64,000 nt of DNA from Thermoproteus uzoniensis 768-20 (lineage in GTDB: Archaea; Thermoproteota; Thermoprotei; Thermoproteales; Thermoproteaceae), in contig NC_015315.1 of NCBI RefSeq assembly GCF_000193375.1, forward strand, positions 186,001 through 250,000. Direction: 5' to 3'. Of this stretch, positions 20,939 through 25,341 are shown piece after piece. Positions within the stretch are counted from its first letter, which is position 1; each line of letters opens with the position of its first letter. The notes below the pieces were generated by a model. It saw nothing but the letters and a program-made list of their open reading frames with translations. It was not told the origin of the DNA and did no database searches. Position numbers and translations under genes: made by a program.

Positions 20939-21214
20939 ATGTCCGAGGAGGCCAAGGTCGTCGCGTCGAGGGAATACAGGATAAGCCTCCGCAGGGCCTA
21001 CTGGGCGGCCCGCACTCGGAGGGCCAAGAGAGCCGTGGCGATAATAAGGGAGTTCGCGGCGAGACACATGAAGACCGAGGTCGGCAAGGTGAAGATAGAC
21101 CCTTCCCTCAACGTCGCGATTTGGTCCCGGAGCAGAGAGAGGCCGCCGCGCTATGTGGATGTGGTTATCGAGAAGAGGGAGGACGGCACCGTCTTAGTCA
21201 AGCCTAAACAATAA
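20939..21214 (+). CDS. rpl31e: 50S ribosomal protein L31e
   Basis: A 91-residue archaeal/eukaryotic large-subunit protein located near the exit tunnel. [21 protein letters not shown] is the family core (read as [16 protein letters not shown]), followed by [20 protein letters not shown]. Length is standard. It shares one base with the next gene (TAATG), placing the 116-residue protein downstream in the same transcript. Confidence 0.97.
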
Positions 21215-21564
21215 TGGACCCGCTCAAGGCGCTACAGTACCGCTTTGTCAGATACTGCGTAAATAGGGCCTACGTCAACGTAGACCTATCCAACAAGCCG
21301 GCTGAATTCGTCAACCTCCTCGACGACGTTGTCGACGAGCTCAGAGACCTGGAGCATCTAATCGCCGAGGATCCTAACAAGACCGAACAGATACTGACCG
21401 GAGAGTTGATGGAGAAATACAGACTATTGCGCGAGAGGGATAAGGACGTCGCCAAGGCCCTATTCTCCGGCATTCTCCGCAACTGCCTAGAGCTTGAGGA
21501 GATCTCGGAGAGCAAGCTCGGCGATACCATAAGGCGGCTGCTCGACGAGATAGAGAAGTCGTAG
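21214..21564 (+). CDS. hypothetical helical protein downstream of L31e
   Basis: 116 residues, acidic and predicted nearly all helical, with conserved-looking blocks RFVRYCVNRAYVN and LRDLEHLIAEDP. No known domain is recognised. The start overlaps the L31e stop by one base (TAATG), so it belongs to the ribosomal transcript and may work in ribosome biogenesis or translation; that is inference from position only. Confidence 0.75.
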   Translation: MDPLKALQYRFVRYCVNRAYVNVDLSNKPAEFVNLLDDVVDELRDLEHLIAEDPNKTEQILTGELMEKYRLLRERDKDVAKALFSGILRNCLELEEISESKLGDTIRRLLDEIEKS

Positions 21565-21589
21565 TTGCTCTAAAGGCTTGCGACATTGC

Positions 21590-22810
21590 GTGAGGACGCT
21601 ACTGCAGGCGCCGCCCGGCTTCGGCAAAAGCAGGAGGCTCGCCAAGGTTGCTGTAGAACACGGCGGGAGGACCCTATTCTTTGTTAGATCGCACCTAGAG
21701 GCTCTACAGGTCTATTCTTATATAGCCGAGTACGGCGGGAGCGCCGCGCTGATGTTCGGTAGATCCTCCTTATGTAAATTCGGCGCGAGGACGGCGACCG
21801 AGTGCCTCTTGCTTCGGGAACGTGGAATATGTAAAGCTCGATATAAATATATAAATAGAAAATTCGCTAAAATAGACGATATTTACAACGCCGGCGTATG
21901 TCCCTACGAGTACTTACAAGCTATAGGGCGCCAGAGCAAGATAGCGGTGTTGCCTATTGCCTATCTTGAAAGCCAAGAATATCTATCGTCTATCGCCGAT
22001 CTCTTGAGGGAAAGCGATCTGGTCATAATCGACGAGGCGCACAACCTCCTGCTGCACGACCTGCTTGTCGAGAAGGACGTTCCATCAGATATGATATGCG
22101 ACCCACACGCCCGGCGGTGCGTCTTGCTACCCATAATGGGAGAGCTCCTGAAAGGAAGAAACGTTCTATTGGCGAGCGCATCTGTAACTAAACCTTTTTC
22201 TGAGATATTCATTAAATTTCTTGATATAAACTATATAAATAATGATAATATATTTTTTGAAAATTTAGTAATTGATATATATCCTATAAAAATAAGGTAT
22301 ATAAATAGAATAAGCAAGTCGACTGTATTACTTATTAAAAAGATATTAAACGATACTTTTTCTGTTTTTAATAAAATTATATTATTTCTTCCTAATAAGA
22401 AATTATATGAATATTATAAAGTCAAACTTAGAGAATATCCGTTATCAGATAGGCCGCTTGGGGATATACCACACATAGTGATCACCTATTTCGGGAGCCC
22501 GCTCTCTGAAGGCGTCAACGTGGATGCGGACGCGGCAATCCTCGTCGGATTCCCCATACCTAACGTGACAGATAGTTGGTTGAAGGCCAAAATGCAGATC
22601 GTCGACAGGCTAGGGCTATCGGGCTTCAAATATGTGTTGCTCTTCGCGGCGGTCAGCAACTCCGTACAAGCCATGGGCAGAGTCATGAGAGGCCTAGAAA
22701 ACCGAGAAAAATACGTGGCGGCTGTCGACGACAGGTTCTGGAAATACCGCTGGGCGATGCCCAAGTGGTTCGCCAACTCTGCAGTATTGAGAGAGGCGCC
22801 GACAAGATGA
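21590..22810 (+). CDS. XPD/Rad3-like FeS superfamily 2 helicase, short form
   Basis: About 406 residues. Motif I is LLQAPPGFGKSR at the N-terminus. Four Cys (about residues 62, 72, 81 and 104) lie between motifs I and II, as for the FeS cluster of XPD/FANCJ/DinG helicases. Motif II is IIDEAHNL, and the C-terminal helicase half ends with SNSVQAMGRVMRG, the motif VI-like QxxGRxxR. True XPD has about 550 residues, so the arch region is reduced. GTG 21590 is preferred to TTG 21578 because of TATA-box spacing. Bases about 22190-22450 are strongly AT-rich within the gene. The stop overlaps the HerA-like gene (ATGA). It probably unwinds or remodels DNA together with the downstream ATPase. Confidence 0.85.
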   Translation: MRTLLQAPPGFGKSRRLAKVAVEHGGRTLFFVRSHLEALQVYSYIAEYGGSAALMFGRSSLCKFGARTATECLLLRERGICKARYKYINRKFAKIDDIYNAGVCPYEYLQAIGRQSKIAVLPIAYLESQEYLSSIADLLRESDLVIIDEAHNLLLHDLLVEKDVPSDMICDPHARRCVLLPIMGELLKGRNVLLASASVTKPFSEIFIKFLDINYINNDNIFFENLVIDIYPIKIRYINRISKSTVLLIKKILNDTFSVFNKIILFLPNKKLYEYYKVKLREYPLSDRPLGDIPHIVITYFGSPLSEGVNVDADAAILVGFPIPNVTDSWLKAKMQIVDRLGLSGFKYVLLFAAVSNSVQAMGRVMRGLENREKYVAAVDDRFWKYRWAMPKWFANSAVLREAPTR

Positions 22811-23706
22811 TCGACATAGCCCTCACGGCGCTCGTATCGCTGGCTCTCGCTACATACATCTGGAGAGACGACGAGGTGTTCGTAGGCCTCGGCTCCGGCG
22901 GCCTCGTCTATCTGCCTCTCGACAAACATATAACCATAATAGGGCCCACCCGATCGGGCAAGACTACCCTCGCCAAGAAGATAGCAAGCCGTAGCGGAAA
23001 GAAGGTCGTCGTGATGGACTGGAACGGCGAGTACAGCCTAGGCCTTAAGATAAATGCCTCTAAATTAAAACTAGATATATCAAATATAAATAAGAAAATC
23101 TTAGCAGAATTAATTGGTATATCATTAAATCTAAATGAGCCATCTATTTACTTTCTATATAGATCTATAAAGGATCAAGAGGTTAAGCGGCCGAAAGATC
23201 TGCTGACGGCGATAGATTCGTATCTGACAACCACGAAGAGCGAGACTGAAATGAAGGCGGCCATACTACGTAGGCTTGAGTACATTCTCGATGCATTAGA
23301 CAAAGGAAGAATTCCACTTGATTTTATTATTAAGTACAATAAAAATATAACAATTGATTTATCTAGTCTATCATTAGTTGAGGAGAAGATTCTAATAATA
23401 TCATTAATTCTGACCTTTATATACAATAAATTTAGAAATATGTCTATTACAAAAAATATAAAATTAATATTAATAGTCGATGAAGCTCAAAATATTTTAA
23501 ATCTAAATATCATAAGGCACATAATTACTGAAATGGCCAAATACGGCATTAGAGTTGTTCTGGTCACCAATATACTGCCGCCACCGGATGTAATGGCGCA
23601 TACAAACATTATACTCGTTAAACCACATATATCGTATAACTTTAAAGTGAATAATTCATCTATTATAATAAATGATAAAATTATAAAAATTTATAAATTT
23701 ATTTAA
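22807..23706 (+). CDS. membrane-anchored HerA/VirB4-like ATPase
   Basis: 299 residues. A single N-terminal hydrophobic segment (IALTALVSLALATYIW) precedes the Walker A motif IIGPTRSGKTTLAKK (about 46-53). VVMDWNGEY follows, the typical HerA/FtsK strand. The Walker B motif LILIVDEAQNIL is near 224, with a sensor region VVLVTN. This is the layout of HerA-like DNA translocases, including the membrane ATPase CedB of crenarchaeal DNA import, though CedB is about twice as long. It overlaps the FeS helicase stop by four bases. Bases 23041-23160 and 23310-23530 are AT-rich. A DNA pump at the membrane is inferred. Confidence 0.8.
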   Translation: MIDIALTALVSLALATYIWRDDEVFVGLGSGGLVYLPLDKHITIIGPTRSGKTTLAKKIASRSGKKVVVMDWNGEYSLGLKINASKLKLDISNINKKILAELIGISLNLNEPSIYFLYRSIKDQEVKRPKDLLTAIDSYLTTTKSETEMKAAILRRLEYILDALDKGRIPLDFIIKYNKNITIDLSSLSLVEEKILIISLILTFIYNKFRNMSITKNIKLILIVDEAQNILNLNIIRHIITEMAKYGIRVVLVTNILPPPDVMAHTNIILVKPHISYNFKVNNSSIIINDKIIKIYKFI

Positions 23707-23711
23707 GAAAT

Positions 23712-23921
23712 ATGAAAGATAGAGATGAAGTAATTAAACAGATTATTAACACACTGAAGATATTGGGCATTGATATCGACGAGATGGAAACTTGCGAGAT
23801 TTATTTTAATTATCTAAATTATAAGTTGTCATACATAGAAAAAACCCTCGATGAAATAAAAGAGAAAATAATTTTTATAGAAAATCTAAAATGCTTAAAT
23901 AGAAAAGAAATGCATAAATAA
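23712..23921 (+). CDS. small helical protein, 69 aa, unknown
   Basis: 69 residues, AT-rich codons (Ile/Lys/Asn/Glu heavy), predicted as two or three helices with a likely coiled coil in the second half (YIEKTLDEIKEKIIFIENL). It starts five bases after the HerA-like stop, so it is probably co-transcribed with it. No homologue or motif is recognised. It may be an adaptor of the ATPase. Its composition differs sharply from the GC-rich neighbours. Confidence 0.6.
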   Translation: MKDRDEVIKQIINTLKILGIDIDEMETCEIYFNYLNYKLSYIEKTLDEIKEKIIFIENLKCLNRKEMHK

Positions 23922-23941
23922 GAGGTGAATTCTAATGATCT

Positions 23942-24304
23942 ATGGAAGGCTTTCGTACAATTTACAAATATTCCGATAAGCTCGATTCCTATGTAATAAA
24001 AAGAATCACTATACAGTTTTTGCAAGATCAAGCAAAGAACGCAAAGGGCAACTTGATAACATTCCGCCCATCTAAAATCGCCCAAGACCTAAGCATATAT
24101 AGCAGGAAGGATATAAGGGCAAAAACGGTCATGATACGCGGGTTCCTCGACGAGCTCGTCCACCGCGGCTATATCGCAGTCATTAAGAGGAGCGCCAGGG
24201 GCAAAGTCTACGGCCTCTATCGATCGGGCAAGCTCTGGGATCTCCTTGAAAAGTACGAGACCGACAAAGTCCTGGAGATACTGGAGTCCGAAAAGTTACA
24301 GTAA
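23942..24304 (+). CDS. winged-helix-like protein
   Basis: 120 residues. FRPSKIAQDLSIYSRKDIRAK with VMIRGFLDELVHRGYIAVIKRS forms a helix-turn-helix plus wing pattern, so it is probably a DNA-binding regulator or an adaptor of the locus. GAGGTGA 13 bases upstream and a TATA-like TGCATAAATA about 26 bases upstream both fit the ATG at 23942. The first third is AT-rich, then composition returns to GC-rich. No specific family is recognised. Confidence 0.65.
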   Translation: MEGFRTIYKYSDKLDSYVIKRITIQFLQDQAKNAKGNLITFRPSKIAQDLSIYSRKDIRAKTVMIRGFLDELVHRGYIAVIKRSARGKVYGLYRSGKLWDLLEKYETDKVLEILESEKLQ

Positions 24305-24339
24305 TCGCCGGCAATATATTAGGGCTTTCCTCCCGCCTT

Positions 24340-25341
24340 GTGTATATCGACTTGAGCGACCAGTGGAGGAGGTTGGGCTTGGGCTCGAGACTCGAAGTAA
24401 GAGACGGCGTCATATTAGCCGACGGCGAGATCATAGAGGTCAACAGACCAAAGCTCCGTAGCTTGAGGGCACGGGCCGCATATCTCCTATATCTACGAGA
24501 GCTCGCGAGAGATGACAGATATAACGTGGCCATAATTGGGGCTTGGAAATCGGGCAAGTTGATCGAGCCACCGGAAATCAAGGTCAACCCCCTATTTCTA
24601 TTCCTCCCGTTTCTGATCTCCATGCCGCCGGCCCTGCTCGTGCACCATCTGTCTCTACAGCTCGTGGTTGGGATTTCCGCGATTATCGCCAGCTATATCG
24701 CTTTATTTCTATATTTAAAAAGTAAATGTATTAAAGTAGATTATATAACTATAATAAAAACTAAATATAAAGATTTAAATTTTCTTAAAAAGAACAAAAA
24801 AGAGATTTTAGAAAACCCCGCTATACTTGGCGAATACGAGGCCTACCACTTCAAGGCCAGGGGCATATGCGTGGTCAAGGACCGTACGGCCAACGCCATG
24901 TCTTTCGAGACGCCCTTCGGCAGTATTATACTCGCCACCACCGGGCTCCTCGCGAGGCTGAAGCCGGAGGAAATAGAGGCGGCCTTGAAGCATGAGGAAG
25001 GCCATATAAGGCTTCACCATATGTATAAAATTCTTTTATTTCTAATAAGTGAATTTATTTTAAGAATATATTTAATTAATTATATATATGCTAATATATC
25101 GCTTTATTTAATAGGAATTCATCTAATCGGCGCGTCTCTGCTCTACACGGCATTGATACGCCTCTACGAGTACGAGGCGGATAGATACGCCGGCTCCAGA
25201 CACCTGGCCACCGGCTTGTTGAAGGTCGGGTGGAACGAGGTCGTCGAGGAGGTATTATATCCGGCCTACTCGCGGCTGAAGTTCTTAGTTAAGACACACC
25301 CTAATACGTTGGACAGAGTCCTCAGAATATGGACTTGGTGA
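24340..25341 (+). CDS. M48-family (HtpX/Ste24-like) integral-membrane zinc protease
   Basis: 333 residues with two N-terminal membrane segments (about 83-100 and 107-126), then the zinc motif KHEEGH (218-222) and the third ligand Glu in YEYEADRYAG (about 279). A further hydrophobic hairpin lies between them. This is the M48 order, with the active site facing the cytosol. GTG 24340 is supported by CAATATATTA about 23 bases upstream, so the gene has its own promoter. Two AT-rich patches (24680-24830 and 25021-25120) coincide with membrane or linker parts. It could process membrane proteins of the island or have a general quality-control role. Confidence 0.88.
   Translation: MYIDLSDQWRRLGLGSRLEVRDGVILADGEIIEVNRPKLRSLRARAAYLLYLRELARDDRYNVAIIGAWKSGKLIEPPEIKVNPLFLFLPFLISMPPALLVHHLSLQLVVGISAIIASYIALFLYLKSKCIKVDYITIIKTKYKDLNFLKKNKKEILENPAILGEYEAYHFKARGICVVKDRTANAMSFETPFGSIILATTGLLARLKPEEIEAALKHEEGHIRLHHMYKILLFLISEFILRIYLINYIYANISLYLIGIHLIGASLLYTALIRLYEYEADRYAGSRHLATGLLKVGWNEVVEEVLYPAYSRLKFLVKTHPNTLDRVLRIWTW

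Follow-up and report, generated by a model that had tools for sequence, protein, structure and literature searches.

Which genes at positions 21590 to 25341 of this 64,000-nucleotide stretch of Thermoproteus uzoniensis 768-20 DNA (the window; NC_015315.1, 186,001 to 250,000, from a genome of 1,936,063 bp on one contig) belong together, and what might they do? A preliminary description proposed a five-gene DNA-handling island made up of an iron-sulphur helicase, a membrane-anchored HerA-like ATPase, a 69-residue protein, a winged-helix-like protein (wH) and an M48 protease. All five open reading frames (ORFs) lie where it placed them, with the ATGA overlap of the first two and the 5-base gap that precedes the third. 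The island shrinks, however, to a smaller and older unit, which consists of the helicase (HEL) and the ATPase (ATP), probably with the 69-residue protein (s69) as a third member:

21590..22810, + strand: HEL, XPD-family helicase paralogue, predicted to bind iron-sulphur; GTG start, 406 amino acids; Pfam DEAD_2 and Helicase_C_2 matches
22807..23706, + strand: ATP, ATPase core of the CedD/VirB4/HerA type with one N-terminal membrane helix; 299 amino acids
23712..23921, + strand: s69, short coiled-coil protein that may be a partner subunit of ATP; 69 amino acids

An alternative TTG start at 21578 would give HEL a length of 410 amino acids.

The unit was delimited in 45 Thermoproteales genomes belonging to the families f1 (Thermoproteaceae), f2 (which contains Vulcanisaeta) and f3; we designate genomes, loci and genera by G, L and g numbers. 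A scan of named genomes yielded only two loci, both of Vulcanisaeta. As judged by strong matches, HEL and ATP are both present in 33 of the 45 genomes and both absent from 12 (genera g2, g4 and g7, one g3 genome, G017 and the 54%-complete G043), and in no genome was either found alone (0/45). Because they are conserved in 33 genomes, the two ORFs are not chance reading frames. The neighbourhood survey that the preliminary description had called for gave the order NusB-like gene, HEL, ATP, s69, wH, M48 and a further gene, labelled g125, in f1, and NusB-like gene, HEL, ATP (with a coiled-coil tail), wH, M48 in f2; the informational genes for PCNA, PriS and TFS are also in the neighbourhood. In G006, G008 and G017, exactly HEL, ATP and s69 are missing, so that the NusB-like gene adjoins wH across a gap of about 130, about 130 and 77 bp, respectively, and M48 is next to wH. 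Whether or not a genome has the pair, the NusB-like protein and wH are nearly always there (each in 44 of the 45), and M48 remains beside wH in all three Thermoproteaceae that lack HEL-ATP. Since these flanking genes persist without the pair, only HEL and ATP, and probably s69, count as the unit, and the reading as a five-gene island was abandoned. What the preliminary description had looked for as support, a helicase and an ATPase that stay together in differing contexts and come and go as one, was found for the pair. Both genes are also retained where the arrangement is disturbed: ATP has moved 0.4-0.7 Mb from HEL in G010 and G011, and the block is broken between the two genes in G014. In their respective trees HEL and ATP each form a single clade for the Thermoproteales, with f3 as the first branch in both. 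We regard a functional linkage of HEL and ATP as very probable.

The next question is what kind of helicase HEL is. The XPD-like character and the four cysteines between motifs I and II, both reported in the preliminary description, were borne out by the Pfam matches and by an alignment of 14 orthologues from three families, in which the cysteines (residues 62, 72, 81 and 104) and the catalytic helicase motifs are invariant. The AlphaFold model (mean predicted local distance difference test, pLDDT, 90) has XPD as its top Foldseek match, followed by DinG. As judged from the modelled XPD fold, the helicase motifs and the four cysteines of the iron-sulphur type, HEL is an XPD superfamily helicase, and it is predicted to bind iron-sulphur. 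A DEAD_2 match occurs in all 46 genomes searched (the 45 Thermoproteales and G045), and besides HEL the window's genome has a canonical XPD-type match (587 amino acids, at G000:C1:85971), as do almost all of the others. In the tree, the Thermoproteales HEL proteins cluster in one clade (support 100/100), apart from the canonical XPD clade (99/99), which includes the XPD of the same genome; distant helicases encoded next to ATP likewise fall outside the canonical clade. By this phylogeny HEL is an XPD paralogue and not the universal XPD orthologue, an identity that would have spoken against the preliminary proposal.

HEL resembles archaeal XPD/Rad3 and the Sulfolobus tokodaii Xpd4 (PDB 2vl7) in its XPD fold, its DEAD_2 and Helicase_C_2 domains and the four cysteines between motifs I and II. 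It differs from archaeal XPD/Rad3 in forming a separate clade, in missing most of the Arch insert and in the short stretch ahead of motif I, where only about six residues are found. The spacing of motifs II and III is 48 residues in the window's HEL versus 114-129 in the f2 and f3 orthologues, and the gap is common to all f1 sequences in the alignment, which indicates that most of the Arch insert has been lost from HEL in the Thermoproteaceae. Such an Arch-less helicase may need the help of a partner to hold the DNA strand. A search of the PubMed Central (PMC) literature for the S. tokodaii XPD paralogue returned nothing useful.

ATP was described beforehand as HerA-like with one N-terminal membrane segment, and both features hold: it matches DUF87/HerA (E ~1e-10), residues 1-19 form a single hydrophobic segment, and the ATPase core begins approximately 20 residues past this helix. 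The best named family is CedD (NCBIfam NF053655; E=1e-18, model positions 220-476 of 527), although the score of 67.4 bits is far from the CedD cut-off of 600 and from the 674 and 707 of two Sulfolobaceae controls; the N-terminal VirB4-like domain of CedD is absent from ATP. The Walker A residues and E226, Q228 and N229 are invariant. Foldseek matched the model (pLDDT 84) to DndH (top), HerA, VirB4 and TrwB. PDB matches to RecA involve the P-loop only, and RecA was dismissed as a relative. By its Walker A and B motifs and the HerA/VirB4/TrwB fold of the model, ATP is a translocase of the FtsK-HerA superfamily, for which DNA pumping is predicted. In the tree the Thermoproteales ATP proteins group with HEL-linked ATPases from other lineages (95/95, and with moderate support of 87/90 after the removal of long branches), and a tree that unites them with Sulfolobaceae CedD alone was rejected (approximately unbiased test, p=0.013).

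The slot occupied by s69 holds a homologue of 57-80 amino acids at 15 further Thermoproteaceae loci. In the f2 genera a coiled coil forms the C-terminal end of the ATPase, and in f3 a separate 180-residue coil follows it. Profile comparison of s69 with the f2 ATPase tail aligned 27 columns only, at a probability of 71% and within coiled coil; direct homology is weak, and that s69 is a homologue of the tail is no more than a suggestion. Family-profile searches returned no match for s69 or for the 120-residue wH.

The unit also has an unusual base composition. Third-position GC is approximately 0.8 in the neighbouring genes versus 0.52 in HEL, 0.40 in ATP and 0.30 in s69, and sharp AT-rich patches occur within HEL, ATP and M48, where 25-codon blocks reach values as low as 0-0.2. 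Low third-position GC at 21590-23921 and 24340-25341 is seen in other Thermoproteus as well, and f2 has no clear contrast.

Does the pair exist outside the Thermoproteales? Outside the order we examined 45 loci with an ATP-profile match; most had been fetched around the ATPase alone, and the rest came from the first survey. A HEL-profile match is also present in 17 of these loci, and in 13 of the 45 it is the directly adjacent gene on the same strand. HEL is next to ATP in the families f12, f27, f37, f39, f44 and f46 and three genes away in f11. The arrangement is ATP followed by HEL, the reverse of that in the Thermoproteales, and the pair is therefore not simply an inherited block. The preliminary description had remarked that no pilin-like gene is adjacent, which is correct for this genome and fails for other lineages, where CedA-like or type IV pilus genes lie beside the pair. 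In f39 and f46 the genes directly upstream encode a T2SSE ATPase, an 80-residue pilin-like protein and membrane proteins, of which one is T2SSF-like; in f44, T2SSE and T2SSF lie approximately 4-7 kb upstream, and a DNA ligase gene is also found upstream. Whole-genome searches detected polytopic proteins of the CedA/CedE family in 3 of 18 non-Sulfolobus genomes, all scoring far below the curated cut-offs. In two of them, G070 (f11) and G124 (f27), these proteins and small proteins with two transmembrane (TM) segments are encoded approximately 3-5 kb from ATP, and in G131 the CedA/CedE-family protein and ATP are on different contigs. The two-TM proteins near ATP are candidate pilins.

A small protein family, in which a helical domain at the N terminus is combined with a coiled coil, is encoded just upstream of the Tad-like T2SSE genes that precede a CedD-like ATPase (L145:4456-4902, L155:4796-5170, L156:7205-7612 and L163:1765-2289). 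A link from this protein to the pair through the f3 coil was considered and was unsupported by profile search.

What, then, could the two proteins do together? The ATPase and helicase motifs are intact, and the genes are paired, are present or absent jointly and turn up again in other gene orders, next to genes for DNA import or pili. We consider it likely that HEL and ATP translocate DNA at the membrane. That the process is DNA uptake or exchange is, in our estimate, an evenly balanced proposition, and the same holds for the fuller hypothesis that HEL, ATP and s69 constitute a two-motor DNA-translocation module serving it. With its single helix as membrane anchor, ATP would most likely assemble into a CedD/VirB4/TrwB-like ring and drive DNA, by pulling or pushing, through a channel in the membrane. 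At the inner face HEL might separate the strands or strip bound protein, which would yield single-stranded DNA that can be threaded, and the small coil, which in sister families forms the C-terminal end of the ATPase itself, would probably bridge or stabilise the ring. Assembly of this ring, physical contact between HEL and ATP, a defined direction of transport and use of the Ted channel in the Thermoproteales would all be parts of such a mechanism. As with Ced and Ted, the process would most likely be one in which chromosomal DNA is taken up or exchanged and then serves recombination repair. HEL would thereby occupy the position that the helicase ComFA holds in bacterial competence. ComFA and ComEC offer a parallel in the manner of working, a helicase combined with membrane DNA transport; ComFA is, however, of the DEAD-box type and belongs to another helicase family, and the unit has no ComEC-like channel.

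S. islandicus cannot import DNA without CedD (PMC11868833). CedD shares with ATP the ATPase core, an N-terminal membrane helix and membership of the FtsK-HerA superfamily, whereas ATP lacks the N-terminal domain of approximately 215 residues, belongs to another clade and is paired with a helicase; none of the four Sulfolobaceae CedD loci examined has a HEL neighbour. The same study assigned CedB/CedD to other orders and VirB4 to the Thermoproteales and left helicases general (PMC11868833), and a CedD-like core in the Thermoproteales would extend that distribution. Ted is reported in all five Thermoproteales genera, including Caldivirga (PMC9905601). Ted (TedA/TedB/TedC) and the pair have in common the archaeal order, ATPases of the VirB4/HerA class and a proposed role in DNA exchange, but the pair lies outside the Ted locus and ATP is neither TedB nor the HerA-like protein of that locus. 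HerA-NurA has a HerA-type ATPase core, as does ATP; the unit differs in that no NurA-like gene was recognised in it, and ATP, at 299 residues including the membrane helix, is too short for the N-terminal barrel domain of HerA. In Thermoproteaceae loci, no nuclease was recognised among the genes conserved beside the pair, in an inspection that included no NurA profile search. For the production of single strands during exchange, HerA-NurA has only been proposed (PMC9905601), and a census of archaeal type IV pili makes no mention of a helicase (PMC4858521). HEL, which is gained and lost with a CedD-like pump and lies near CedA-like or pilus genes in other lineages, is a concrete candidate for a part in generating or importing single strands during Ced and Ted exchange. 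The literature searched, which covered CedD and Ted and left most subscription journals outside, contained no description of the HEL-ATP pair; the superfamilies are known and their combination is apparently undescribed.

Several results weigh against a role of the pair in DNA uptake or exchange. We take G009 to be Pyrobaculum calidifontis, an identity backed by a TedC signal-peptide motif and an adjacent protein with seven TM segments, and G019 to be Caldivirga maquilingensis. In P. calidifontis TedC/TedA are at approximately 721 kb and HEL-ATP is at 1.838 Mb, 1.1 Mb away. The preliminary statement that the locus is neither Ted nor HerA-NurA holds for the genes recognised there. Caldivirga lacks HEL-ATP although Ted is reported there, and TedA was undetected, with a single-sequence query, in the window's genome and in many genomes that have the pair. 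Within the Thermoproteales no co-occurrence of the pair with TedA or with T2SSF pilus genes was seen; the pilus genes are present with or without it. No pilus or channel gene was recognised near the f37 pairs, the two-TM proteins of L078-L080 matched neither CedA1, solved pilins nor the databases, and ATP is without the N-terminal domain of CedD. For the Thermoproteales, a role in DNA import or exchange is inferred. One could envision, tentatively, that ATP and HEL are an ancient Thermoproteota motor pair for DNA exchange, in which a membrane pump resembling CedD has an XPD-type helicase of its own and which plugs into surface machines of several kinds (Ced-like channels, Tad/type IV pili, possibly Ted), and that the Arch-less helicase of the Thermoproteaceae would need the ring of the pump in place of the Arch gate.

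One alternative is that the pair is a membrane-tethered complex for DNA repair or end processing, in which ATP works like HerA without NurA, HEL unwinds damaged DNA and nothing crosses the membrane. In its favour, HEL is a paralogue of XPD, the fold of ATP resembles HerA and DndH, the surrounding genes (PCNA, PriS, TFS) are informational, no Ted or pilus gene is near the pair in the Thermoproteales, and the 1.2-Mb genome G015 keeps the pair although T2SSF and TedA were both undetected there. We think that this is unlikely, since no nuclease gene was recognised in the unit, a canonical XPD and a cluster of the HerA-Mre11-Rad50 type are encoded elsewhere in the genome, and the membrane helix, like the CedA or pilus genes near the pair in other lineages, speaks for transport at the membrane. 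Another scenario is an FtsK/SpoIIIE-like chromosome mover, in which ATP pumps chromosomal DNA at division and HEL clears obstacles. The FtsK-HerA superfamily ATPase with its N-terminal membrane helix, vertical inheritance and a chromosomal position that is kept through most of the order would fit, but the pair is wholly missing from several genera and is therefore dispensable for chromosome segregation; with a single membrane helix and linkage to pilus or CedA genes elsewhere, this scenario seems decidedly improbable.

A third possibility, an anti-virus defence module of HerA and a DinG-like helicase, is raised by the PADLOC typeIV_DinG model, which matches HEL (E=3e-33), by the mad8/HerA defence models, which match ATP, and by the top Foldseek match of ATP to DndH. 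We find it very hard to sustain: the same PADLOC model gives the canonical XPD of this genome 305 bits versus 113 for HEL and is thus unspecific, there is no nuclease or modification gene, and the position is a conserved housekeeping one. A CRISPR type IV-A DinG identity for HEL was likewise rejected, as only the broad PDLC01439 model matched and canonical XPD matches it better. Neither a plasmid search with ATP nor a phage search with HEL gave a match, and an origin from such elements was set aside. With PDLC01439 (typeIV_DinG), canonical archaeal XPD proteins score approximately 250-305 bits and would be mislabelled as CRISPR-associated. Finally, that HEL and ATP share no function and are merely co-located in a conserved housekeeping block, as the conserved NusB-like, wH and M48 neighbours and the distance of ATP from HEL in G010 and G011 might suggest, is scarcely credible given the joint loss while neighbours stay, the swapped-order pairing in unrelated contexts and the lack of any genome with one gene only.

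The genes flanking the unit are as follows:

21214..21564, + strand: NusB-like helical protein, flanking neighbour outside the unit; 116 amino acids
23942..24304, + strand: wH, winged-helix-like protein, flanking neighbour outside the unit; 120 amino acids
24340..25341, + strand: M48 metalloprotease with membrane segments, flanking neighbour outside the unit; 333 amino acids

The interval 21590-25341 chosen beforehand covers HEL, ATP and s69; it takes in wH and M48, which are not co-inherited with the pair, and omits the conserved NusB-like neighbour. The M48 assignment itself was sound (PF01435, E=1e-12; HEEGH motif), but the proposal that the protease serves as quality control or activation found no support, as M48 is not co-inherited with the pair. 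M48 and wH form a separate conserved pair that are neighbours even in loci without HEL-ATP (L228 3569-5292; L224 3016-4543); in Caldivirga (G019) the two genes are adjacent and divergent. The wH protein, which occurs throughout the order and has no family assignment, has an identity within the genus of 89-98%, on a par with PCNA; compared with three other species of the genus, the window's protein is 94-98% identical. The NusB-like protein has a sub-threshold NusB match (E=0.002), was confined to the Thermoproteales in the search made, and has C15, R44, E47, R75 and E96 as invariant residues. A methyltransferase-like gene with a PFVPTPE[VI]V motif recurs near the clusters in several families (L065:4768-5526, L071:6730-7413, L080:8835-9338 and L224:1900-2559).

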